Assembly: GCA_963969395.1 (NCBI GenBank)
Contig: OZ017798.1
Span: 25,040,173 to 25,104,172, forward strand
From: Pseudoscleropodium purum
Lineage: Eukaryota > Streptophyta > Bryopsida > Hypnales > Brachytheciaceae
Direction of reading: 5' to 3'
DNA length: 64,000 bases
Positions 15,168 to 61,200 of the stretch are shown piece after piece. Each line of letters starts with the position of its first letter. The first letter of the stretch is position 1. The position numbers and the translations under genes were made by a program. The notes under the pieces were generated by a model that saw nothing but the letters and a program-made list of their open reading frames with translations, ran no database searches and was not told where the DNA came from.

Positions 15168-15209
15168 ATCAACTCCACGGTTGACGAATCTCAATGTCCG
15201 CCCCAAAAT

Positions 15210-15375
15210 CAAGGTTGACAGGACGTCCGGACGCGGATGCTGTGTCCGCAGCATCCGTTGACATTCGCGGTCCCCGCGGACGCAGTGTCTGCCGGGACCG
15301 CCCCGTCCGCCTGTCACCCCGTCCGCCCCGTCCGCTTTGACGGCCCTATTTCCCCCGACCGCCCTACCAAAACTG
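15210..15375 (+). repeat. GC-rich left subterminal array of the hAT element
   Basis: Dense CGTCCG/CGGACG motifs in otherwise AT-rich DNA, beginning at the terminal inverted repeat. Short repeated subterminal motifs are known binding sites for hAT transposases. The same motif fills the MITEs of this family and the other GC blocks of this element. Confidence 0.75.
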
Positions 15376-15785
15376 CTTCGCGGTCACTCCCTTAATCTTT
15401 AAACAATTAAATGTTAAATGAAGTGCAATGGTTCACGATTTGTCATTAAAACAATGTCTCTTATAAGTTGAAAGATTATAAAGTTTGACCATGAGTCCAT
15501 GATAGTCTTGAAACTATGAAAAAATTCCAATTCATTTTCAGAAGGCAAACTAAAAAAATTTGTGACTTCAAATATATATATATATATACTATTTAAAAAA
15601 TTGAGATCAACACAAATACAAACATAATCAATATGGGCAAAATATATTGAATTTAATATAGAATACCATACATTGTACACATTTGGCTAATTGCACATAT
15701 AATTTTTTTCATTCCAACTCTATATTTCTAAACTAATTTTTAATGCCTATATAACCTATTCAACTACTACTTCTGCACTACCAAT

Positions 15786-17279
15786 CTAATATAAATGGTG
15801 GAAATGTTCATCTGGCATCGGCCAACGATATGTATTAGAAAATCGCGTAATCACATGGGCCAAACTAGTATTTTCATCATCAGTCTTCGAAGAAATGCGC
15901 TTCAAGTAAGCATAAAATATTTTTGCAAAGTCATGAAAGGAAAATTGTGTCGCACTAGGTGTTTTTCGTAGCACGTTGAAATACGCCTCTGACATGTTGT
16001 TTCCATTCATCCGCCGAGCAATTTTTCGAATGGCATACTCTTCCAACTTACGTGAATACATCGGAATGACTTCCACATCCGCACCTGCTTTATGCAAATA
16101 TACAATACGTGGATCCACCCACCATCTCCTCTGCAAAGTTTGTTTCATCTCATTTGCTGATGTAAATGTGTACAAAGACTTCATTAGCTAAGAAGCTAAG
16201 GTGGTCATGCCCCAATCGCAAATTCCAATGTACACACGTGACTCATTCTCTGGAAAATGCAACAAGATGTTGTCCGGAGAAAGATCATTGTGCAAATGTT
16301 CAGCAAGATGCATTGCATACATTATATGCATAAACGCCCATGTCAACTCCGTGCGCTTCTTCCGATATCGTCCTAAATGGTGAGCTTTTACAACCTCCTC
16401 TTCGGTTGGATTCGTATACATCAAACGGATTTGAATGTTGTCTGGAAAGTCCTTATCCATATTCAACATTTGTCGAAGAGTTCTACCATTCCACCAATAC
16501 GCATAACCTTCACACGTCGTTCCGTGCACCGCAGCAAACCGTATCACACCCGTGTGTGGAATTCGAACAACCATTGATTCGTTTTGATGTTCTAATTTTG
16601 CAAGATCGGGTCGAGTTTGGTGGTGAATGGATTTCTTCGCCGCAAACTCCCAATAAGGAAGTATTCCTGTACATCCTTCAATACGAACCTTTCGAATCAT
16701 TGCATATCCACCTCTCATCGTTCTATCATCAACAGCAATCACGCGTGCTGTATCTGGAAGTGCTATGAGGTGCTGTTTGGTCCTTTCCGCTTTAGCAACT
16801 CCATCATTGTTTTTCCACCAACCAATTGAACCAACTCGATTCTGCGTTTTGGCGAATGGAGCACATCGCCCCCTAAACAAGTCCGCTTTCAGAATCACTT
16901 CTTCAAACTGGGCGTCATTGGGTCGATATTCCTTACCATATTTAACCAAAATGACTTTGGAATTCCACAAAGCGTCATGAACCTTGTTCTGCAAACATTT
17001 GGTGAAGTACATTTTATGCATTTCGTCATGCCACTTCGCCACATTCAATGCATCCAACAACATCTGTATCATGTCTACCTTGAATTTAGACACGCACTCC
17101 TCTTGATATCTGATGTACTTATTGTCTAAAGACAATGTTGTTTCCGATTCATAAAATTGAACGATGCGCTCAATCATGAATTTTTTGTATTCCTCCGAAG
17201 GACTTTGGCGAGCTACTTCCAAGTTTGATGGTCCCTCTCCATGTTTAAGCTTCGCAACCTTCTTCTTCCCCTTCGTCAT
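15786..17279 (-). pseudogene. protein-kinase-like gene carried by the hAT element, one in-frame TAG
   Basis: ATG at 17279; 363 codons run to a TAG at 16190-16188, then the same frame continues to a stop at 15786 (498 codons in all). The N-terminus is basic (MTKGKKKVAK). From about residue 189 a kinase core is visible: a glycine-rich segment (RGGYAMIRKV), a probable ATP lysine (AAKK, 215-216), EGYAYWWNGRTLRQML near the hinge, the catalytic loop HNDLSPDN (Asp332) and DWG at 355-357 in place of DFG. The TAG is six codons after that DWG motif, in the activation segment. After it, RRWWVDPRIVY fits the APE region and the C-lobe continues to SNTYRWPMPDEHFHHLY. With every core motif present it was probably an active kinase. 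It reads away from the transposase. Substrate unknown. Readthrough cannot be excluded. Confidence 0.7.
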
Positions 17280-17446
17280 TGTGACAAATGAAACTGATAT
17301 AGATGAAATTTTCTAATTTAAATGTGAATTCACGCGCAAGTGTTAAAAAAATTGGCAACAAGGGGGCCCCAATAAACCACTCTTGCCTTGCCTCGGAAAG
17401 GAACCAATGGAGGATGAACCACCAAGCTCTCCGCTCCACCTTGCAT

Positions 17447-17650
17447 TCACAAGGGGCAAAGCAAAAGTGACAATGCGGACGGCCCGACCGCCCCTTTTAT
17501 AAGGGCGGACGGCCCTAAACCGTCCGCCCGATCGAACGGTCCAGGGGGGCGGACGGGGCGGACGGCGAACAAGTATCGGGGCGGACGGGGTCTAGGCGGA
17601 CAGGGGTCTGGGCGAATGGGGCGGATAGGTACGAGGGCGGACGGGGCGGT
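17447..17650. repeat. internal GC-rich CGGACG array, left part
   Basis: Many GGGCGGACGG units lie just upstream of the kinase-like gene. The block stops abruptly at TTTCACCCTGAAGCGC, where an AT-rich P1-type element begins. It may be one half of an interrupted block whose other half is at 20,434-20,625, lying between the two divergent genes. Confidence 0.65.
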
Positions 17651-17873
17651 TTCACCCTGAAGCGCTTCGATGTCCATATTTTACACGATAAACAAAGGTC
17701 TTCATGGCACTGTATAGTCCAACTAACTTTTCATTCATTCAATGTAAAATTTGAAATTAAAAAAGGTAGCCTTCCTTTATGACCAAATTTATGAATTCTT
17801 GGTAAATGATATTTTTGTACAAAGATATGAGCTAAAATGTGCAAAAATTCACGAAAGGATTGCGACGTTTAAT
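17651..17873 (+). mobile_element. decayed short P1-type element (copy e)
   Basis: Matches the short element at 42,221-42,433 along its length: CACCCTGAAGCGCTTCGATG at the left, then a shared block including AATGATATTTTTGTACAAAG, then GACGTTTAA at the right. The flanking TTAA and the GGGG end have decayed. It is embedded in the hAT element at the edge of the GC block. Confidence 0.5.
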
Positions 17874-20433
17874 ATAAGTATCCAAATATTCACGTTGCAT
17901 TGTGTATAAAGCAATTATAAGAAGGTAGTTGAATAAAAATTCTACTATTAAATTGAATTAGTTGACGTCTAATCACTTAGTAAACCGCTAAATGTCCAAG
18001 TCCTTGCAAGTGTGTTTTGGCTATCGAAAAGAGCATGGACTTATAGTTATCCCCAATGAAGCAAATTGTTCTTTTTTCAAAATCTAACGGTATAGATGTT
18101 TAGCCCCTAAAGTTCTTTTTACTAAAAACACTTCAAAACTGCCATTAGTAGTGCAAATACCAAGTCTTAGAAGAAAAATACTTTTGGGCATATGTAACTG
18201 TAGGATCTTGTAGTAAATTAGTTGGAAAAGATGTGGAAAAAATTTTAGACAAATCCACCATTTGGATTGTAAGATATTAGATATTGAATGTTTCATTTAA
18301 GGGGGCTATTCAATTATGTCTATTAATGAACAATTGGTAGGCTAACAAACCTAACTTAGCATGTATTTTCATATTTGTTGCAATTGTTTTAGGAATATTA
18401 TAACATAATACTATTATAATATTCTTATAAATGATATAGTACTAAATCATTTCAAAATAAACAACATTCGAACACAATCTATCAATCTTGTTTTCCATAC
18501 TCCTTTAATGATATATATATATATATATACATATATAAAATATATTAGATAAATCAACATGAACAAATCAATGATTATATATTTCATAAATCTATTCTTC
18601 ATCAATCAAATAAGAGTGCATGTTCAAATATAGACAAAGATGGTTTCTCCATTTGTTCCCAAAAATTAAATAAACAAATAGAGAAAGATATGAAGTGAAT
18701 GTTACTTGAAGAATTGGAGGGAATGAAATTGAAGTACTCAATTTCATTTTATTAAATTGGAAAATTGCATGTGGATGGCATAAATTAATCTTCATAGATG
18801 CTAAACTCATACGAGTTGCATTTCAACATTTATGATTTATGCAATTGATTGAATATAAAGCTCTTGTAATTACATTTTCAAATTTTCGATTTAATCATTC
18901 AAATTTGCAAGAGTGATTTATGATAGATTTATAACTTTAAATGTGAAAGCATTCAATGCCTTTATGCGTTTGTTCATCAATATATTAATTTTAAATAAAT
19001 AATATATATTTTTTATAACATATGCATAAACCATTGCATTAAAAAAAACAAAAACTAAGAGCCAAGCCAAATAGGCTGGTCAAATGAAGAGAACAAGAGA
19101 ACAAGAGCCCTACGAGAAAGCAAAGGAAAAAAAAAATATCAAAAGGATTCAAAGGAAGGAGCAAGATGCATTCTTGCAAGACCGTAGAATACATAATGAT
19201 TTCAAAATCCAAACACAAATATATTTTCTATTTCAATGAGAGTCAAAAATGAACTACCCTGCTCTCAAAGATTGTACAATGTACACGTTATACAAAATGA
19301 ACATATAACAGAAAGAGTAGAAGACATCGTTTATCATGATTGAAAACAAAAATGATTTTTTCTTTCTATGTAGAATATTTTATGAAATGTAACAATGTAT
19401 TTAATTATCATAGTAATTGGTAGAAATCTTTGTGCAATACATAGAAACATTTCATTCATGTGGAATTTTTCATTTATTTAGGATTAAAATTGAAGTATTA
19501 TACTCTACAAAGTACAAACTGAAAACAATATCATATACCTAAATTCAAAAGTTTGCAATTGTTTCGTGAATTCATTTTGAAAACTCAAACGAAAAAATAT
19601 TTTATAATCAATATCTTATTTATTTGAATAATTTCAAAATTCGAATTCCGAATTCAATTCCTATTTATAATAGAAATTATGTTTGTCAATTTTTTAGATC
19701 TTTAAACAATGAACCCTCTTTTATTAAATTAATATTTAAAAACATCTAAAATAAGAATATTGGAATTACCTTTCAAAATAAATATAGCACATGTATAAGT
19801 GTATAATGTATTCTACTCAACCAACTCAAGTAACGAATTTTTCTATGTTTTTAAGGAAAAATATAGCCATATATGATTTGAAAGTTAAAACATTGATTCT
19901 TTTTCTTTGTTTTCAAATCTAATCAAAATTTCATTAAAAAATATGAAAGACTCAATGTTCATTTGAAGATCGTGATGCACTTCTAATTAGAAATCACAAC
20001 CTTTCATTAAATATCATGAGGTTGAAATCCATTAAACTGTTATTTTAATTATGTATTGGGGCCTTTTTTTTAAATTTCATTTGCTTATGATGAAAAAGGA
20101 ATTGATTATTTCTGCAAAACATTTGATTTCCTGATGAACTTTAAAAAAATCCCCACCATCTTCAGATCTTCTCAAAACCTATTTAGAAGGATAATATGAG
20201 TAAATAATCCAAACATATTCAACTTAACCACATTCCCCTCATTCGTAAAACAATTTAGGGGAGAAAAGAAAAGGTTTAGGGTAATTAGGGTATAGGGTTT
20301 AGGGTTTACATTTAAAAAAAAAAAAATGATAAATCAATTACATTGATCCTCATTTAGCAGTGATTATTAGGCTGTTTTTTTTTGGAAATGTTACCGCTCT
20401 TTTTGAGTAATATCGGCCTCATAGGATGCTCCA
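17874..20433. other. AT-rich DNA inside the hAT element
   Basis: No gene recognised. A degenerate element end (TTTAGCCCCTAAAG) near 18,099 starts a segment of about 200 bp that matches 60,802 onward and, inverted, 59,240-59,344. A (TA)n run lies at about 18,510-18,530. Telomere-like TTTAGGG units occur at about 20,273-20,309. The block separates the two GC-rich arrays and is probably an insertion or captured host DNA. Confidence 0.5.
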
Positions 20434-20625
20434 ATGGACAGCTGGGCAGACGCCGTTGGCGGTCAGTGTTTAAGTGGGGCAGTCGACGTGTCCAAAGCGT
20501 GGACGGCGTCGGAAGGCGGACAGTGCAGACAGTCCCGTTCGACCGCCCCGTCCGCCGCGTCCGATTGCCCGTCCGACCCGTCTGGCCTGTCCGCCCGCCT
20601 GCCCCGTCCGGGCTGTTGCTTGTTT
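20434..20625. repeat. internal GC-rich CGTCCG array, right part
   Basis: Dense CCGTCC and GGACGG units lie about 300 bases upstream of the transposase start, mirroring the block before the kinase-like gene. Together the two blocks could act as a shared control region for the divergent genes; this is inference from position only. Confidence 0.65.
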
Positions 20626-20926
20626 TTGAATGGAAACCCTAAAAATGAACCTTTAATTTTCTAGAAGGGACTATAAATGTTAGAAGAGAAGCTTTGGTAT
20701 TCACTCTCGAAAAATCGAACGCTAAGATTTCCAAGGGCTATGAGCTTCAATTTATTGAGTCTCTTGCTTGGTAATGCATAGTTCGGTGGACGGGGGGGGC
20801 TTTGATTTCCAAAGCTTTGTGTGACTAATTTCATTGATATTGTATACATTGTCACGTTTTGGGTTTCAAATTTAAAACATTTTATTGGTTTCTTTTGAAA
20901 TTGAGGTAAAACATACACTTGTCAGT

Positions 20927-23900
20927 ATGGTGGCCAAACCGACGAGGGATTTTTCTCCTTGGTTTAGTGTGCAAGAGGGTGGTAAAGTAAAATGTAGGCT
21001 TTGCAAAGCGAGCATGTCAAAGAAGCTCAGCCGTATGTTCAGCCACTTAGGCTATTCTGGGCCTGGAGGTGTACGTGATAAAGGGGTGAGCCTTTGTTCA
21101 CGATTATCAATGGCAGTTTGAGATTTATTTCGGCATTGCGAAGGAGTTTTTCCAAAACGCGTTGTAATGGACAATGTGGATGGCAACCCTAGCCCTTCAA
21201 ATGTCCAAGAGTTTTCGGCCGGAAAGGCTGTGTCGCATTTTGACTACAAAGATTCTTGTCCAGCGTCTAAAGAATTGGTATCAATGGTATGTGCTACAAC
21301 TGAAATGACTTTGAGTACGGAAGCTTCTGGAGAACGTGAAACCCCGAGGGCATCAAGTTCTAGGCCTCAGAGGCAAGGCAACTTAATGAATGGGTTTGAA
21401 AAAGGTCATAGACGCAAATTACATTCAATGTGGGCAAATTTTTTTTATTCGGCAAACATACCATTTTCCGTGGCTCAAAATCCAGCTTTTAAAGAAGCAG
21501 TGAAGAAAACGGCTATGTTTGGTAGGCCATACATTCCTCCCTCATACCACGACCTTCGGTACAAATTGTTGAATGAGGCGAAGACCAACATTCAGACACA
21601 GTTGAATGCACGGATCAAAGATAGCATTCGAAAATTTGGAGCAACATTGTCCATTGATGGATGGAGCTCAGTGACTAATCGACCTCTCATCAATGCCATG
21701 CTTGTATCATTCGCAGGTGAAGAATTTCTTGGATCTGTGGATACAAGTGGTTGTTAAAAAAATGCGAAGTACTTGGCAGCTGTGTTGGAAAAGTTCATTA
21801 AACAAGTGGGGTCCAAGAACGTCGTGTTAATAACTACGGATAATGCTCCCATGAATCCGTCCGCATGGGATGTAATATCTGCAAAATATCCTCATATTTT
21901 TTACCAAGGGTGCGTGGTACATGCATTGAATTTGTTGTTGAAAGATTGGGCTGCACAGAAATGGATTGCTTCCAAATTGGATAAAGAAGTTCTTGTAGAT
22001 AAATTTATCAGGAAGAGACATATGCCGCTAACTCTATTGCGAAAGTATTCGCCAAATCTTGGTCTCTTGATGCCTGGGGATACAAGGTTCGCCTCTAAAT
22101 TTATCATGATGGAACGTTTGACAAAATTGAGAGGAGCATTGGAACAAACGGTGGTAGATCCGCAATAGGTTGAGTATGTATATACTCTCAAGAAGAAACG
22201 TGGAGCCAAAGTCCAACCAAAAGACTTGGCCTTAGCGATGAAGAAAATTGTTCTTGATGACCATTTTTGGAATTGGTCCATCAATTATGTGGAGATGGTT
22301 GAACCAATCATATGTGCACTCTGCGATTTGGATTCAAAATCACCATGCATGGGGAAGGTGTTGCATATCATGAGGAAGTTAGAGAAACACGTGAACGGAT
22401 TACAAAGTCCACCATTTTGTTTGCTAGAAGAACTTGCAATTCCATTGGTAGTCTTTTTATGCCCAAAGAAGAATGGTAGACAACGATCTCCAATCAGCCG
22501 CAGCTCTTTTGAATCCATACCTTCTTCATGACAAAAAGCTAGCAAATGACACAGATACAATGTTAGGATGTAAGAAAGTTTTGGAGAGAATATGTAAACC
22601 GGATGAATATGCAGCAGTGGTGAAGGAATTTGTGGCTTTTCGACACAAGGAACCTCCATTCCACAATATGTTGAATCCGGGAGATCAAATGTTGTCCGCA
22701 CATGCTTGGTGGGATTTTGAAGGTGCATGTGGCAAGTTTATAGCTCCATTAGCGAAGAGGATATTGGCTCAACCGGTGTCATCATCTTCATGTGAACGGA
22801 ATTGGAGCAACTATTCTTTTGTTCACAACAAATCTCGAAATAAATTGAAGCCGGAGAGAGCAGCGGATTTGGTGTACGTGTATACCAATTCCAAAGTATT
22901 AAACGCATTGAAAGAAAAAGATGAAAAAAAATGGTATAATGATAATGTGGATCCGATGGAATCAGAGGATTTAGATAGACCGACGTTAGGAGACGATGAT
23001 GATGATGATGACGAGGATTTGGAAAGGGCCCTTTCAGCTGTAGATGGCGGAGATGACTTCAATCGTGCGACAGCATGGGGAGATGAAGACGTGATAGAAG
23101 GCTTTCCCGATTTGGTGAATGATACGCATGATTATCATCTAAACCGCAAGGATGTCGTTCCCGACAATGCAAACGATGCATATACCTTTTGTGAAGACGA
23201 GGACAATGTAGAGGTACAGGAGAATCTACCTTCTTTAACTGCATATTACAATGGAATGGGATTCTTGAATAGCGAAAACATTCTATCGGTAAAGGCAAAC
23301 GCTATTGCCAAAGAGGTGAAAATCAATGAGAATGCTATTGGTGATGATGGGAGAAATGAAGAAATTTTAATTTCTCAATCTCCATCTGTGGCATTAAATG
23401 TAGTGCAAGGAAACAACAAAAGAAAAGATGCGGTCATGGAGGTGGACGTTCCAAAAGATGTGGGCAATAATAGTGGTGATGAGGGGGAACCAAATATTGG
23501 GGTACAGAAAAATAGTGATTCAGTTGGGATGGCAGTCACAAATTCGGCAATTGTAAAGAGTGATAAAGAAAAAGAGCCAATGAAGTCAATTTTTGAAGTA
23601 CCGAGATCTAGTGCTTTTCCACCAATACCGTTGAAGTCTGTTAGCACACGATTGAATGATTCTCAAAGCTTTGGATATGGAAAACGCCTAATGAACATTT
23701 CCAAAGAAATTTCTACAGGCGGTAATCTACGGAAAGTAGCGTCATCACCTACAAGTCTAAGTGAAACGGATAGTGATCGGATGCCATTGGCATCTTTGTG
23801 TGCTCGCATTTTAGGAAAAGGAATGGCGCAAGAACCCATCAAATCAACAAACGGCACTCTATTACTTCAAAAGAAAGCCAAAGTGGAGATAACCGTTCAT

Positions 23901-24272
23901 GGACATGTCGACCCTACATCGAGATTGATGGTTCAAGAATCGAGTAACGTGAAAGCGAAAAGAGAAATGCAACCTTTTGCTATCTCTCCAATGAAGAATA
24001 GGACCCCTTTTGATGAAAATGTTGCTACTTTGTCAAATAGAAAGAAAAGAAAGGTTCCTATTCAAAAAGCCTTTAATCGTTCTGTCAAAGTAAAAAAAGA
24101 AAAATTAAATTCGAAAGAAGGGAGTAAACCTACTTCAAGAGAAGACTTGAAGGAGACAACGATACTTGATTTCAACAATGAAGATGACTCCGATAATGAA
24201 GATTTTGAACGGAGAGCTGCAGGAGAGAGTAGTGGGGCTGAGGTTAGAGGAGATGTGGATTGGCGTCCATAG
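20927..24272 (+). pseudogene. hAT transposase (BED finger, DUF659, hAT dimerisation) with long C-terminal tail
   Basis: ATG at 20927. A BED-type finger (KCRLCKASMSKKLSRMFSHL) is followed by DUF659-like catalytic segments SIDGWSSVTNRPL and LITTDNAPMN, then CVVHALNLLLKDWA. The hAT C-terminal domain includes SSSSCERNWSNYSFVHNKS and AADLVYVYTNSKVL. Three in-frame stops (TGA at 21119, TAA at 21755, TAG at 22166) and one frameshift near 22,470 break the first half. The last 599 codons from 22,473 are open. About 440 residues after the hAT domain form an unusual tail: a run of Asp residues (near 22,998-23,020), polar linkers and a basic NLS-like RKKRKV near the end. Typical hAT transposases end soon after the dimerisation domain. 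The protein would cut and join the element ends. Confidence 0.8.
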
Positions 24273-24617
24273 GAATTGTGGAGATGTGAATTTAGATGTT
24301 TGATTGTTTAGTTGCTCATGATATATGGAGCTCATGTTGACAAATGACAATGGTTTCTTCAATCATTTTATTATGAAATTGTTTGTTTATTGATGATATA
24401 CATCTCGCTGGATTTTAAAGTGATTTTGTTTCTGAATCAAAATGAAATTCAACAAAAAAAATTAAAAATATATTTCATATTTTAGCTTTTACATAAATAG
24501 TGATATACAACTCTATTGAATCGCAATTGCAATAGAAGAAAAATCAAAATCAAAATGACTTCACTCTCAATCTCTCATTGGTGAAAACAATCAAAACAAA
24601 AAACCCAAAACGGGTTT

Positions 24618-24745
24618 TCTAAGCCGCCCCGCCCGGCCCCGCGCGTCCGCCTTCCGACGGCGGGAGGGACGCTGCGTCCGCTAGCGTCCGAACGTCCGGA
24701 AAACCGACACTATTTTGGGGCGGACGTAGAGATTCGTCAACCCTG
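24618..24745 (+). repeat. GC-rich right subterminal array of the hAT element
   Basis: CGTCCG-rich right end finishing GGGGCGGACGTAGAGATTCGTCAACCCTG-like sequence. The last 28 bases are nearly identical to the right end of the MITE at 36,476-36,684, showing common ends for the large element and the MITEs. Confidence 0.75.
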
Positions 24746-25163
24746 CCCAAAATAGCGTCCGTTTTCCAGACGTTCGGACGCAGCGTCCCGACCACCGTCG
24801 AAAAGCGGACAGGCGGGGCGGACGCCCAGATAGTGCGGACCAGATCAGTCCGCGCGTTGATCGGATGGCCGTAATCGGGTGGACGGGCGGACGGGGCGGA
24901 CGAGCGGACAGGCGGATGCTGCGTCCGCTGCGGACACAGCGTCCGCGTCCGGACGTCGTATCAACCCTGATCAACCCTATTGCAATATATAGCAAAATCC
25001 AATGCATTATATCCATTATAACAACTAATCGCTGAAAATAGACCAACATCTCAAATTTTTAGTCTCTTTCAAAAATAGTGAATCCTTTTGCCTTAAAAAT
25101 GTTCAACATACCCTATTCCTTTATTTATGGTCTCCTAATCAAATACAACTTAATATAAGCACA

Positions 25164-31186: not shown

Positions 31187-31796
31187 TTCACTGCATGGTG
31201 GTCCAAAACTCCTTTACGAAAGAATGACAGCTTTACGTCCATAGTCTGACTACAATGGCCAATTCCCAGGCTGCCTGGATTGGGTATAATCTCTGGAATA
31301 CGCATGAGGAATTGGTGAGAACACATTGTGACATTACCGGTAGTGAAGTAGATATGTAAGAAGTCTGTATGTACCAGAGATTGAGTCCAGCGTCACTTGG
31401 CTAATGCAGTGGTCACATCCAATCATTCTACAAACATATACGAGACTCTAGGGTTATCGTTGTCCGTTCCAATGACGTTGAGAATACTTGATGCAAATTC
31501 TATTCAGTTATCATAGAATTCCATCTATAGACGAAACCATTCCTGGGGTGGTCCATTTCGACGATATCTAAACCTATGATAGCCTCGAAGACTCCAAACA
31601 ATCACCGCTTTACTTAGCGACGGCCTGTAAATCAGCTCCTACACTTCAAACGACACTTGCATACAAACGAAAGTTCAAATCTCACCTACCACCACAGAAT
31701 AAACCGCATTAAAGTCCTCCCAAATCATAGCAGCACAAGGACGATCCAGTAGGAATAAACTAAAAACGGTATAGACAAGGAGCAAAATCCAGAAAC
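31187..31796. other. unique-looking flank of the left RPL8 copy
   Basis: Composition is more balanced than the surrounding AT-rich repeats and no long open frame is present. It lies downstream of the minus-strand RPL8 copy but is not shared with the right copy, whose own flank (43,993 onward) is different. No gene recognised. Confidence 0.4.
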
Positions 31797-33308
<1,512 letters not shown>

Positions 33309-36475: not shown

Positions 36476-36684
36476 CAAGGTTGACAGGACGGTCAGACGT
36501 TCAGGACGTCCGGACGCGGACGCCATTCGCCCCGTCCGCCCTGCCCGCCCTGTTCGCCCCGCCCTGTCCGCCCTCGTCCGCCTTCCGACGGGGGGAGGGA
36601 CGCTGCGTCCGCTGGCGTCCGTGCGTCTGGACGTCCGGGTTACGGACGCTATTTTGGGGCGGACGTAGAGATTCGTCAACCCTG
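36476..36684 (+). mobile_element. hAT MITE, copy A
   Basis: Starts CAAGGTTGACAGGACGG and ends GATTCGTCAACCCTG. A perfect 8-bp target duplication TTTTTGAA lies at 36468-36475 and 36685-36692. Its 209 bp are packed with CGTCCG/CGGACG and show the same ends as the 9.5-kb element at 15,210, of which it looks like an internally deleted derivative. Confidence 0.93.
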
Positions 36685-42220: not shown

Positions 42221-42433
42221 TTAACCCTGAAGTGCTCCGATGATGAATAGAGCACTTCTAGGTGCTGTATTGTCTAGCAAACTTTTCATTCATCCAATCT
42301 AATATTTGAATCTTGAAGAGAAAACCTTCCTATATGACAAATTTCTTGAAATTGCAGTAAATGATATTTCTGTAAAAAGATATAAGCCAAAATGTGCAAA
42401 AATTGAAAAAGGATTGAGGCGTTTAGGGGTTAA
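42221..42433 (+). mobile_element. short TTAA-flanked MITE, P1-type (copy d)
   Basis: TTAA at 42221-42224 followed by CCCTGAAGTGCTCCGATG; right end GGCGTTTAGGGG followed by TTAA at 42430-42433. Length 213 bp. Its ends match the longer P1 elements but the interior is shorter. It lies 47 bases from the inner edge of the right RPL8 arm. Confidence 0.7.
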
Positions 42434-42537
42434 ACATGCAAATGTTGATTCAATGGAGTTACTTGCGATTTATACTGATGCATTTCAAGGCAACTCAAGG
42501 GAACGCGAAAGGGAACATCGTCTCTCTCATTCTGGAA

Positions 42538-42546
42538 TTAGGGTTT
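42538..42546 (-). promoter_or_regulatory. telo-box upstream of RPL8 (right copy)
   Basis: TTAGGGTTT (AAACCCTAA on the other strand) lies about 120 bases before the RPL8 start. This motif is typical of plant ribosomal-protein promoters. The mirror copy is at 33,243-33,251. Confidence 0.55.
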
Positions 42547-42662
42547 CGAGCTGCGTCGCTCGCTGGGGTTCAGGACCGGGTGGTGCGACGTCATTCCTCC
42601 TTTTCTCTCTTGCTCCCTCGCAAGTCTCTTCGGGGGTTCTGCACCTCATTCCTCCATCAGCC

Positions 42663-43793
<1,131 letters not shown>

Positions 43794-43992
43794 AAGAGGA
43801 GTCGAGGTCAGCGTGGTGGTGGCAGTTGCGATGGAGGAAGTTAGTGGTGATGAGTTTCATGTCGTGCACGTGTATTTTTTTATGATGAATACAATCAGTG
43901 ATGAGGGAGGACGCGCATTCGAACACCCGTTCCAGAATTGTTGAAGTTTTCTCTTGCAGGTCTTTGTTGCAGTTCATGTATCTTCTCTGGTG

Positions 43993-45350
43993 ATTGTGGG
44001 TTTGGTGATGCTTTAGGCTGCGTGAAGCATATGACGACGGGATGTCAGGATGACAGAGAGTGTTGGGACGGTGATAGAACCGGTTAGGCTATTTCCTGGA
44101 ATTGCTTACACGTCTAGCATTATGTCTTTTACCACGGTCTCTATTGCATGTGCCCTTGGATGTTCTGGAAACTAAAGTTTTGTTTTTCTGAGGTGAGTGC
44201 CTACATTCGTTGTGATGCAGATTGATTTTTTAATTCTGAGCTTTGTCTTCGGTTTTGGGCCTGAGATGGTCTCTGCTTCTTGGGTTAATTAGAACATTGG
44301 AATTTTGCCTGATTTTTGTTGATGTTCCGATATTGGTTTTGCTTTCTGGCTTTATAGTGGAGGTGTTTGGTCCACAGTACATCTCTGCATTGCTCGTGTA
44401 AGAACTTTGGAGCTCGGAACTAGTAAGTGAGTGCTGCAGACCCTTACAAACGCTTACTGCTTGAACGTCTTCTTGCTAATCAGTGTCATCGACCAGCTTA
44501 CTCGCAGTTTTGGGAGGTTTCACAAGTTGCAATCTTCAATTTTGTGCCAATGGGTCATGCAATTGTTGGCTGAGATTATTTTTGACGCCACCAGAGGTTG
44601 AATGGGGAATTTTCAATGAACTTCAGATGGGACAGCATGGCACTACGTGACTGCGGAGGCTTCAGTTTTCCGTTAGTGTACTGAGAAATGTTGTCCGCAC
44701 ACCGAATGGTGTGTAGCAGCCATCTTTCTCTGGTTACCCTGTTTCCAACTTCGAGTGCTGTAGCCATATCGCCTTTCTAGAACTTCTGAATTGTAATATT
44801 GCTTGTTGAAGGAAGGAATTAGCATGACATTTACTCCTGGATCTTCACAGCTGTTTTGTGGAGCGTTTCAGAGGTACAGAGTAGCTATACTTCGGGCTTC
44901 CCTCGTCATGATGATATGGGGAGATGTATTCTCGGGGACCTTGAGGTGATCAAATTTGTGTGGGTAGAGATGGGAGTATGGTGCTGGCGACCTGCTGTGT
45001 CCAGTCTCATCTTCCGTGCCAGGATGTTTAGGAAATCATCTTGCTTGAGTTGGATGGCGTGTGTTTTCGCAAAACTTAACTTATCGCTGGATGATGTGCA
45101 TAGTCTAAGTGGGCCAGCAGGAGATTGGCGTTGTTTGTGTTGTATTAAGTATCAACCTCAGAGCATCGCCACCCAAACTTAAGAAGAATTGGCTGGCCTG
45201 GCATGGCATTTTCAAGTGTTGCTCGTTACCTCAACCATGCCCTCAAATTTTCTTGTGGAGGTTTTATAGATTTTATAATTCATTGGCCATGACCAACATG
45301 AAGAGAATGTGGTGGGCCTTAACTACTTCTATGCTAAATGATTAGTGCTG
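43993..45350. other. GC-richer flank after the right RPL8 copy
   Basis: Composition near that of the gene regions, unlike the AT-rich repeats on both sides. Frames at 44,856-45,182 and 45,109-45,345 have no recognisable motif. It could hold a long 3' untranslated region or promoter-proximal DNA; I see no supportable gene. Confidence 0.4.
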
Positions 45351-48659: not shown

Positions 48660-48915
48660 CAGGGTTGACAAGACGTCCGGACGCGAACGCTGTGTCCACA
48701 ATGTCTGCTGGCATTCACGGTCCCGTCCGCCTGTCCCCTCGTCTGCCTATTTGCTCGTCCGCCCCGCTTGTCCCGCCCTGCCTCGTCCTGTCCTGTCCGC
48801 CCCGCCCGTTCACCTTCTGATGGCGGGAGGGACGCTGTGTCCGCTGGCGTTTGTGAGGACAGACGTCCGGATTACGGACGCTATTTTTGGGCGGATGTAC
48901 TGATTTGTCAACCCT
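48660..48915 (+). mobile_element. hAT MITE, copy B
   Basis: Starts CAGGGTTGACAAGACGTCC and ends GATTTGTCAACCCTA. The 8-bp target duplication is CATAGGAT at 48652-48659 and CCTAGGAT at 48916-48923 (7 of 8). GC-rich CGTCCG interior as in copy A; somewhat diverged, so probably older. Confidence 0.88.
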
Positions 48916-49242
48916 ACCTAGGATGTCTTCAAGTTCCTGATAGTCTAGGAACTTACAATCTTCTTTTGGCTTAAAAAAAAATCCTCTAATGTGAGTGACA
49001 TTTTTTAGTCTTCATTTTCTCTTCTTTGCCCTTGAAATTGGATTCTTTTCTTTTAACATTGGAGTGCTCCGACATCCAATTTCTAGACGATGAACAAATT
49101 GGAATTTGGTTTTCTTTCTTATTACTGCTTGGATGAAAGTCATCTAATTTGTAGAGATACTTTATCAAGTTGTTGTCCTATCCAATAGTTGGATTTGATG
49201 TTACTAGAGTTTATATTTTTCTAAAATTACAAATGTGGAAGT

Positions 49243-49789
49243 CATGGTTGTCATAACGGGCAAGTTAGGGTCATCGGACAGGACGGACGGACGGGCAAAC
49301 CGGACCAAACCAGGGTTGACGAATCTCTACGTCCGCTTGAAAAAGGTGTCCGTAATCCAGACATCTGTCCTCACGGACGCCAGCGGACGCAGCGTCCCTC
49401 CCACCGTCGGAAGGCGGACGGGTGGGGCGGGGCGGACGGCCCAAGGTGGACGCCCAAATCATGCGGACCAAATCAGTCCGCATGTCGATCGGACAGCCGT
49501 ATCGGGGCGGATGGGGCGGACGGCGTCCGCGAATGTCAGCGGACATTGCGGACACAGTGTCCGCGTCCGGACGCCCTGTCAACCCTGGACCAGACGAATG
49601 GATAGTCCGAATGGCTTTAATTTTGTAACCTAACGATCTCGTCCGCGCCCAACATATTCCTTAATCCACATGGCATCCACGTGGCTTTTTTTTCCATTAT
49701 CAGAAAGTCAACTATGTGTTGATTGTATCGGACGGGTGGGACCTCTAACGGACGGGCGAACCAGACGTCTGTCCACTATGACAACCATG
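49243..49789. mobile_element. hAT MITE of a second family (D), hosting copy C
   Basis: Starts CATGGTTGTCATA and ends CTATGACAACCATG, a near-perfect inverted repeat. A perfect 8-bp duplication GTGGAAGT lies at 49235-49242 and 49790-49797. Without copy C and its duplication the element is 262 bp. It shares CGGACGG-type subterminal motifs with the CAGGGTTGAC family but has different termini. Confidence 0.88.
49311..49587 (-). mobile_element. hAT MITE, copy C, nested in D
   Basis: In reverse orientation it starts CAGGGTTGACGAATCTC and ends CCTGTCAACCCTG. The 8-bp duplication is GACCAAAC at 49303-49310 and GACCAGAC at 49588-49595 (7 of 8). Length 277 bp. Same family as copies A and B and the 9.5-kb element. 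Confidence 0.9.
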
Positions 49790-58285: not shown

Positions 58286-61200
58286 ACCAAGCCAGCAAAA
58301 ATGGTACCCCCTCAAGAAAGAATGCAACTTTGAGATTTTTGAGCGGGACCAAATTTTTGAGCGGGACCAATTTTTTCACTCTCAAGAATGAAATGATTTA
58401 GAGCACACCAAAACCTCTAGAAGATGGTAGAGCAAAGAATGTCTTTGCCAATGTGAAGACGAGGTTAGAGAGAAAGTATTAGCCATCTTTGTCAAAATTA
58501 CCAAAGGGGAATACATATAACCTCTGAATGCCCAAAGTGCATTTTTTGGCAACATAGAAATTTTGGGTAGTTCACCACAAATGGAGTTTTTATTTTTTTT
58601 CATTGAAATTTTAACACAACATGTGCCCAAGGAGTAGCTTTAAGGCCCAACAATTAACATAGCTTTTGACTACATAGTTAAGAAGTTATTGTATGATATG
58701 TACTTTTCTATACTTAACAGCAGCTCAAGCAACAAAAAAAACTTCTTTAAATTTTATTTTTTTTAAATTAAAATTTGAAATTGATTCTCTAGATTTATGT
58801 ATACTTGAATTTTTAATATTTTGGGAAAAAAAATAAAAACATCAAATATAGATTGTTTATTATAATATTACAACCATTGGAATTGGCATTTTTCAATTCC
58901 ATAAATAAATTGTTGACAACTTAGTATTTTGAATCATTCTCTACTCCTTTCTACTTACTATTTTTGTCCTATATGTTGTATGATTCCAAATGATCTGAAA
59001 TTTTTCAAGCATGTAGCCAACTTCACTTAAAAAAAATGAATCCGAAGAGTAACCACCATTTTGGACATTTTTTCATACAAATGTGATCTTGTGAAGTGCA
59101 GTTGCCTGGTTTTTTGCAAGGCACAAAAAAGGCTTTTTGTCACTTCAAATGCTAACATCTTGCAATCTACACTGTATAAATTTCTGAAGTTTTTTCCACA
59201 TATTCTCAAACAAGATTAATACAAGATCATATGGTTATATGTGTCCAAAGATGTTTTTTTTCTAAATTTTTTTTTATATGTACTACAAATGGTAGTTTCA
59301 GAGCGGTTTTGGTGAAAACATAGTCAAAACCATTTAGGGGTTAATGGCTTCTCTCCACAATAGAAACTCTTTTGTGTGGCAAATGTCTTTAAATTTTTCC
59401 CTTACCCTATGAACAATGTAACAAGATCTCAATCTTTTTCAACTACTCTATATGTTTTGTGGCCTTTATAAAACAACCTTGGTAGCTTTGACAATCATGA
59501 AAGAATCCCATAACCAAGCTCCAATTAGCAGTGGATAGGCCACCAAAGTTTGCAAGCTAAAGGAAGAGTTGAATCTTTGTAAATCTATTTTTATTCAAAT
59601 ATACATGTAGATCTTAGGCTTGGATTTCTACTTTGTCAACTTGAGCTCTACAAGCTTGGTAAAGAATCTAGAAAGAAAGGACTTTGATTGATTACATGCT
59701 AATTCAATACCTAAGGCAAGTAGAGTAGTTGAGAAAGGAGTAGGTTTTGACAAACAAACTAGTCTTTCAATTCCATTCTCCTAAGTCAAAGTTGAGGTCT
59801 TAGATCACTCTTTGCAACCACAAAACACTTGAGAAACTCTTCTTTGAATTGATTTGGATGTTGTGGAGGTCTCTACTACAAGTAATAATTTTATCTTTCA
59901 ACATTTTAAGGGGAAAAAAAATGTCCTATATCTTATGACTCTTATGCATTTTAGTCAATATTTTGGAAATGGGTTGAGATCATATGGAAAAAAAATTAAC
60001 TACAAAAACTTTTTTATTCATCTTTAAGTAGATTATAAATTGGAATGTAATATTGAATGAAAGAAAAAATTAAACTACTAGTAACTTTTACAAGAAAATG
60101 AGAATTGTGAATGTGAATAGTGAGAATGTTCTAGTAAACAATTGGCACCCTTCAATTTTTTCTTTTTTTAAATTCTGAAAATCTGCAAAATAAAACTCTT
60201 CCAAACTTTCAAAACTACATGGTTGAAATGTTTTTGAATTAGTAACAATCTATGGAATCCAAAAATGGTAATTAATATTTTTTTAGAATATATTTTTTGT
60301 TGCTTGGTTCGACATTGAATTCGTTTTAAAAAGGTCTAACTTTTGTAATATTTATTGGAATGGCGTGAAACAAAACTTCATACATAGATTATGATAATTA
60401 GCATCCATTTTAAAATTTTCATGAAAAATTCCAAATTGTGAAGTCAAAGGAGCCTACCCAAATTTTGAGGAGCCCCAAGTGGACTCCTTGATTGTTGAGG
60501 AGTTAAAATCATTGTTCATTATTTATCCTATTAACCTTATATAAATCCTTTGCAGTATAAAATCTACATAGATTATATGATGTCTTTGAACATTTTTTCT
60601 ATGGAGTGTGGTAGGTGTGATGAACCCTATTAGTACTTTCTAACGAATTACAATGTTCCATGATGAATTATAATCCTTGACAAATTAACCCCTAAAGGAC
60701 CAAACTACATTTGGGAGCAACATAGAGATTTGGAGCTATTTACTAAGAATGAAATTTTTTTTCTTTGAAATTTTCATAAAGCATGTGCTCGAAGTGTAGT
60801 TTTAACCCCTAAAGTTTTATGACTATGTTTTCACTATAAACACTTGAAAACTACCATTCTCAGTACAAGTATCAAATTTTTGAATTTTAAAAAAAAAATG
60901 TAATTGTAGGATCTTGTAGTAAGCTAACTTGAGAATATGAAGTAAAAATTTCAAAAATTTTCACTGTGTGGATTGCATGACATAAGCATTCAAATTCATT
61001 GAAATCATTTTCTGGACCCTACAAAAAAACTAGACAACAACACTTCACAAGCTCAATTTTCTATGAAAAAACATTCAAAATTTTGGTGATTCTTTTGATT
61101 CTTTTTCCTAGACAAGTTGGCCACATACTTGAAAGATTTCAAATCATTTAGAATTGTACAATATATAGGAAAAAAATAGTAAGTAGACAGTAGTATAGAA

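Follow-up and report, generated by a model that had tools for sequence, protein, structure and literature searches.

To our knowledge, hAT transposons usually carry a single gene. In the MuDR, En/Spm and PIF/Harbinger elements, which represent other superfamilies, the transposase is accompanied by a second element-encoded protein, and Pack-type transposons contain genes of cellular type, as captured pieces that are usually copy-specific and incomplete. Here we describe a 9,536-bp hAT element of Pseudoscleropodium purum (Bryopsida), located in a 64,000-nucleotide stretch of DNA that was analysed as a whole and is referred to as the window (assembly GCA_963969395.1, contig OZ017798.1, positions 25,040,173 to 25,104,172 of the forward strand), in which a hAT transposase gene is paired with a divergently oriented gene for a protein-kinase-like product. 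The element resembles MuDR, En/Spm and PIF/Harbinger in combining a transposase with a second protein, although the second protein of those systems is not known to be a kinase. Like Pack-type transposons it harbours a gene of cellular type, but its lineage has a full-length kinase gene that is common to the family and is encountered also in a sister family. With the Ac/Ds elements of maize (PMC3260210) and with Hermes (PMC10368747) it shares transposase domains of hAT type, short inverted ends, target duplications of 8 bp, repeats in the subterminal regions and small non-autonomous relatives; in contrast to them, its lineage adds a recurrent divergent kinase gene and a long acidic tail of the transposase. 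A hAT element with a kinase gene was not found in the accessible parts of the literature searched, preprints and most subscription papers being outside the scope of that search.

Borders and gene content of the element

The element and its immediate surroundings comprise the following features (window coordinates):

15210-24745: hAT element of 9,536 bp, delimited by its termini and an exact 8-bp duplication, with collinear full copies L040 and L043
15210-15219, plus strand: left terminal inverted repeat CAAGGTTGAC
24736-24745, minus strand: right terminal inverted repeat, GTCAACCCTG in plus-strand reading
15202-15209: left of the two copies of CCCAAAAT, the 8-bp duplication that flanks the element
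24746-24753: right copy of CCCAAAAT
15786-17279, minus strand: kinase-like gene, with an in-frame TAG at 16188-16190
20927-24272, plus strand: hAT transposase gene, interrupted by stops at 21119, 21755 and 22166 and frameshifted between 22452 and 22480
15412-15464: stretch of about 55 nt seen only in the window, skipped by the aligned pieces of copies L039, L040, L041 and L043
15168-15175: left flanking 8-mer ATCAACTC of an outer miniature inverted-repeat transposable element (MITE)
15176-15209, plus strand: arm of the outer MITE on the left side, ending with the 8 bases of the target CCCAAAAT
24754-24969, plus strand: right part of the outer MITE
24970-24977: right flanking 8-mer ATCAACCC of the outer MITE

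The two copies of CCCAAAAT that flank the element are identical at all eight positions, and the terminal inverted repeats are short and start with CA(G/A)GG, both in the window and in other copies, as expected of hAT ends. The exact duplication together with the termini bears out the proposal of the sequence-only reading that this is a single 9,536-bp unit, and both the kinase-like gene on the minus strand and the hAT transposase gene on the plus strand do lie within it. The kinase-like frame of about 498 codons is interrupted by one TAG, and the transposase frame of about 1,116 codons by three in-frame stops and one frameshift; at the frameshift site, copies L040 and L043 read through in a single frame. 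C-to-T decay as the source of all these stops was considered and dropped: the kinase TAG aligns with Glu or Asp in most relatives.

Collinearity with the window extends over the whole length of copies L040 and L043. The largest indel that separates them from it is of 23 nt, except for the stretch of about 55 nt at 15412-15464, which is placed between the left end and the stop of the kinase gene. The kinase segment has no insertion borders of its own in these comparisons, as the sequence-only reading would have it, and the view of the kinase as an insert with separate borders is unsupported by the two full copies. As to the region between the two genes, its part 17687-17871 resembles 42242-42425, and the part 18116-18288 resembles both 59144-59318 and 60828-60986 (matches in the range of 69-77%). 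This likeness to other repeats of the window suggests that the intergenic region may hold old nested pieces.

The element had been described as inserted into a 250-bp MITE with an 8-bp duplication of its own. The MITE is present, with a length of 250 bp when its two parts are joined and the CCCAAAAT duplication is counted once, and its ends are related to those of the element, but its flanks ATCAACTC and ATCAACCC agree at seven of eight positions, and the outer duplication is therefore imperfect. The left arm of the MITE pairs with the right end of the element over 34 nt and its right arm with the left end of the element over 45 nt, each at 91%, as would be expected for two members of one family inserted in opposite orientation. 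Ends of this type are enriched in the window: CARGGTTGAC, with at most one mismatch, occurs at 16 sites versus 5.97 expected, a number reached in none of 100 shuffles. Further MITE-like units are located at 36476-36684, 48660-48916 and 49311-49587.

Recurrence of the gene pair in the genome

Relatives of the element are abundant in the genome. A search of the 313-Mb assembly (52 contigs) yielded 1,552 first-look candidates with the kinase as a query and 1,001 with the transposase; these are not copy numbers, and the rows that were scored are the best-scoring ones rather than random samples. The best 86 kinase rows comprise the window and 85 others, which match at 91-93% over essentially the full length, and the frame is free of stops in 33 of the 86. 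The matched part of the transposase is stop-free in 26 of the best 83 transposase rows. A listed kinase lies at most 20 kb from the transposase in 26 of these 83 rows, and all 26 pairs are divergent, with 3.6-5.6 kb from start to start. When 20 rows were drawn at random from the other 57, which have no listed kinase within 20 kb, the kinase was found in place on the opposite strand in 15 of them. In 20 kinase copies sampled 4.0-4.9 kb upstream, that position was occupied by transposase (15), by the element interior (3) or by neither (2), and one of the last two has the transposase 5.6 kb upstream.

The recurrence is also seen in copies selected by other means. The DNA of the left end alone gave 41 matches; in the best eight, window included, the kinase stands beside the end in every case. 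The presence of the kinase in 7/7 other loci selected on left-end DNA only, with no junctions relative to the two full copies, differs from the pattern of Pack-type cargo, which occurs in few copies and has junctions of its own. Five copies selected for an intact kinase and fetched nearly whole contain both genes.

Two of the five, the full copies L040 and L043, include both ends in the fetched stretch, and each is bounded by its own exact duplication (TTCAAGAG and TTTTTGGA). Among 20 copies followed to the right end, with the other three fetched ones included, 10 have exact duplications, one matches at 7/8 and one at 6/8, two are mismatched, and in six the end pattern located no right end. 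Exact 8-bp duplications were identified in 12 of 22 other copies, and all 12 differ from each other. The co-occurrence of divergent kinase and transposase genes in independent insertions, which the sequence-only reading had proposed as a check of its claim, is borne out by the 26 listed pairs and by these distinct duplications.

Four of the 15 copies with resolved ends (the window copy, L017, L018 and L037) sit in MITE sequence of their own family, with the surrounding MITE of L017 and L037 recognised in parts only and the inner duplication of L018 matching at 6/8. Without the window copy (3 of 14), the chance of this outcome is 0.0018 at the MITE share of the window, 1.8%, and 0.03 at a share of 5%. 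Insertion into own-family MITEs above the local MITE share is a lead, because that share was derived from a single window.

Several transposase rows of the genome (G000) occur as equal-score pairs on opposite strands, 15-25 kb apart (C1:12222284/12241362, C40:20618957/20639788, C46:390693/406350 and C49:12646472/12671367), and represent either recent inverted duplications or assembly effects. In the window itself, a 1,515-bp inverted duplication (31794-33308 and 42481-43995), 99.9% identical, contains the start of ribosomal protein L8/uL2.

The kinase, the transposase and a sister family

A protein search with the kinase gave 46 homologues, mostly from short metagenome contigs and none named as a plant gene, and a profile search extended this to 49, with three new sequences and no wider family. 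In the alignment of the window protein with 24 homologues that are 39-71% identical, residues K216, D333, N338 and D356 are invariant in all 25 sequences; they presumably correspond to the ATP-binding lysine, the catalytic aspartate, the asparagine and the metal-binding aspartate. Length and frame are kept throughout the homologues. The usual HRD and DFG motifs of protein kinases are replaced with HND and DWG, and the scores with the Pkinase profile (23.2 bits for the window copy, 24-27.4 for homologues) are below the Pfam cut-off of 31.7. The model of homologue P0002 shows a protein-kinase fold over residues 168-490, preceded by an N-terminal helical domain of 170 residues, for which no solved structure matches at E 0.001 or better. 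Thus the protein resembles eukaryotic protein kinases in its modelled fold and catalytic positions, and differs from them in its N-terminal helical domain and in its low identity, about 12-16%, to the solved kinases among the matches listed, of which no named kinase family stands out. The conserved positions and the modelled fold suggest that it may be an active kinase.

Comparison of 30 genome copies of the kinase gave a per-site ratio of nonsynonymous to synonymous changes of 0.40 for changes common to at least two copies and 0.68 for private ones, these copies being the best rows by protein score. The corresponding values for the N-terminal part of the transposase (20 copies, not so selected) are 0.78 and 0.66. 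Constraint is better supported by the homologue alignment than by these within-genome ratios. A second kinase type in the genome did not show up among the best 86 rows of the distant kinase query P0033 (41-44%), which look like the window family; this negative has little weight, as the sister kinase described below is missing from these rows as well.

The transposase passes the Dimer_Tnp_hAT profile (36.8 bits versus a cut-off of 21.4) and, on its two halves, the DUF659 profile (43.5 and 58.2 bits versus 34.7), as do its relatives; zf-BED reaches 15.9 bits versus 20.6 and was unreported at E 0.01 in five homologues. The summary of its alignment contains motifs that we take to resemble the hAT catalytic acidic triad. 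The 19 closest relatives are mostly of 900-1,123 residues, whereas plant matches outside the lineage are of 613-713; the named distant matches are plants. The protein carries an acidic tail of about 450 residues.

With the distant transposase P0068 as a query, 44 rows were scored; a small gap in score sets off the first 28, none of which is among the 83 rows scored with the window transposase. Three of the 28 were fetched and belong to a second hAT family. Its copy at C48:7704767-7721012 (L114, L112, L109 and L113) is 16,246 bp long, has CAGGGTTGTC and GACAACCCTG as its ends, is flanked by an exact duplication, TTGGAGCT, and encodes a transposase that is 35% identical to that of the window over residues 4-699. 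Close to the left end, its minus strand carries a kinase gene that is interrupted by two or more in-frame stops and probably by a frameshift near the start. The product reaches 193 bits with the family profile and 36.0 bits with Pkinase, above the cut-off of 31.7; a translated search puts its identity to P0001 at 27%, and it has the presumed catalytic lysine, aspartate and asparagine and the presumed metal-binding aspartate. Also within the TTGGAGCT duplication is a RING-like coiled-coil gene, represented by a frame of 699 codons on the minus strand and a second piece, 70% identical, on the plus strand; it is assigned as RING-like only, its zf-RING_2 score of 23.9 bits (E 5.1e-5) being below the cut-off of 27.3. 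In the sister copy L108 this frame has 755 codons, and L107 has other DNA at that place. Transposase pieces 32-40% identical to that of the window were observed beside two copies (L007 1-1429 and L030 4084-4491) and perhaps belong to the sister family.

Among viral contigs, no relatives were found of the kinase (29 pattern matches) or of the transposase (31 pattern matches). The contigs of GTDB genomes gave no kinase relatives (113 pattern matches) and three transposase relatives (71 pattern matches), L104, L105 and L106, the last two of them weak. No kinase was found on these three; the sequence of L104 starts only within the transposase and does not cover the kinase side. L104 has the label Synechococcales, and P0003, a kinase relative from a 2.9-kb contig, the label Bacilli; both are probably eukaryotic DNA in bacterial genome bins, and P0003 is probably a contaminant. 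The longest contig given for the kinase homologue P0034 has 27,639 bases, as has that given for the transposase homologue P0057, and the two probably lie on one contig.

Proposed role of the kinase and alternative explanations

Four arrays are located within the element (all limits approximate), the first three of them GC-rich:

15210-15380: left subterminal array, containing GTCCG repeats
17440-17660: array upstream of the kinase gene, at the same position in L040 and L043
20420-20620: array upstream of the transposase gene, at the same position in L040 and L043
24620-24745: right subterminal array and end

Clusters of GTCCG/CGGAC occur at both element ends and upstream of the two genes, in the window copy as well as in L040 and L043. 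The sister element has GTCCCCGCC repeats at both ends and upstream of its kinase, RING-like and transposase genes. The BED domains of Hermes transposase are reported to bind left-end repeats (PMC10368747). The arrays of the window lineage may be bound by its transposase.

That a hAT element with divergent kinase and transposase genes is present here can be regarded as nearly certain. We further consider it reasonably probable that the window contains a decayed copy of a high-copy, two-gene hAT lineage, whose kinase joined before two families of this genome split, was kept as an accessory gene and acts on the transposase. Elements of this lineage would encode a long-tailed hAT transposase and a divergent kinase with an N-terminal helical domain. 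The transposase would bind the repeat arrays found at the two ends and upstream of each gene, so that both genes would be switched jointly, and the kinase, presumably acting in the nucleus, would phosphorylate the transposase and thereby set its activity, assembly or timing. The acidic tail of about 450 residues is the first-choice candidate substrate because the transposases of the lineage are so much longer than the plant matches outside it. The kinase appears to be a second gene that is old and regular, and not one captured recently. That it is a regular gene of the lineage, a possibility raised by the sequence-only reading, is supported by the consistently divergent pairs, the 12 distinct exact duplications and the lack of inner borders; as to the capture of a host gene, raised alongside it, the kinase gene in the sister family (one copy) makes a recent event unlikely, and a host gene may be its remote origin.

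Several observations weigh against this reading. Both frames are broken in the window copy, so that neither full protein is made from it, and none of the five copies read whole has an intact transposase. Five of the 20 randomly drawn transposase copies lack the kinase at the expected place, where one has element DNA, one a short inverted match and three nothing, two of these three being a look-alike inverted pair. The ends of these five copies are unresolved, and full-length copies without the kinase, named by the sequence-only reading as evidence against its claim, were not found. The sister kinase is known from one copy only, with a broken frame, and is missing from the best 86 rows of the P0033 genome search, an absence that proves little. 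The low ratio for shared kinase changes rests on copies picked by protein score, and its difference from the transposase is partly a selection effect.

The same architecture would be expected if the kinase targeted host proteins, such as silencing, DNA repair or cell-cycle factors, and not the transposase. A host target could be bound by the conserved N-terminal helical domain, for which no solved structure matches at the above threshold, and the sister element adds a RING-like gene, of a class often acting on other proteins; on the other hand, no host target is visible, and the transposase is always encoded nearby, with a long tail that could serve as a substrate. We regard this possibility as rather unlikely. 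The kinase could also be a passenger, descended from a single capture of a host gene and carried through later copies with no use to the element, which would agree with the stops that both genes accumulate in genome copies and with its private ratio of 0.68, like that of the transposase (0.66). However, homologues only 39-71% identical keep the length, the frame and the invariant catalytic positions, and the sister family has a kinase gene too, which would require long selection and makes a mere passenger improbable. The sub-threshold Pkinase score of the window copy and the HND and DWG motifs might point to a pseudokinase that serves as a binding partner, but the invariance of the presumed catalytic residues in 25 of 25 sequences and their presence in the sister kinase render it very improbable. 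A chance neighbourhood or an assembly artefact is refuted, the same gene pair occurring with different flanks on many contigs and nothing having been found in its favour.

According to the general view, it is host kinases that tune the activity of transposases. If the proposed action of the element's own kinase on its transposase is true, a kinase kept across deep divergence would make the regulation of transposition directly testable with one gene and one candidate substrate, the many copies being natural variants. A modular accessory region is suggested by the sister family, in which a RING-like gene is added. Only tentatively, it may be proposed that a deep hAT lineage equips itself with signalling-type modifying enzymes, a kinase regularly and a RING-like protein, perhaps a ubiquitin ligase, in at least one family, each driven by transposase-bound repeats, to control the transposase or override host control, and that this lineage tends to land in its own MITEs. 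Transposons can also inflate the numbers of kinase genes counted in genomes of this kind.
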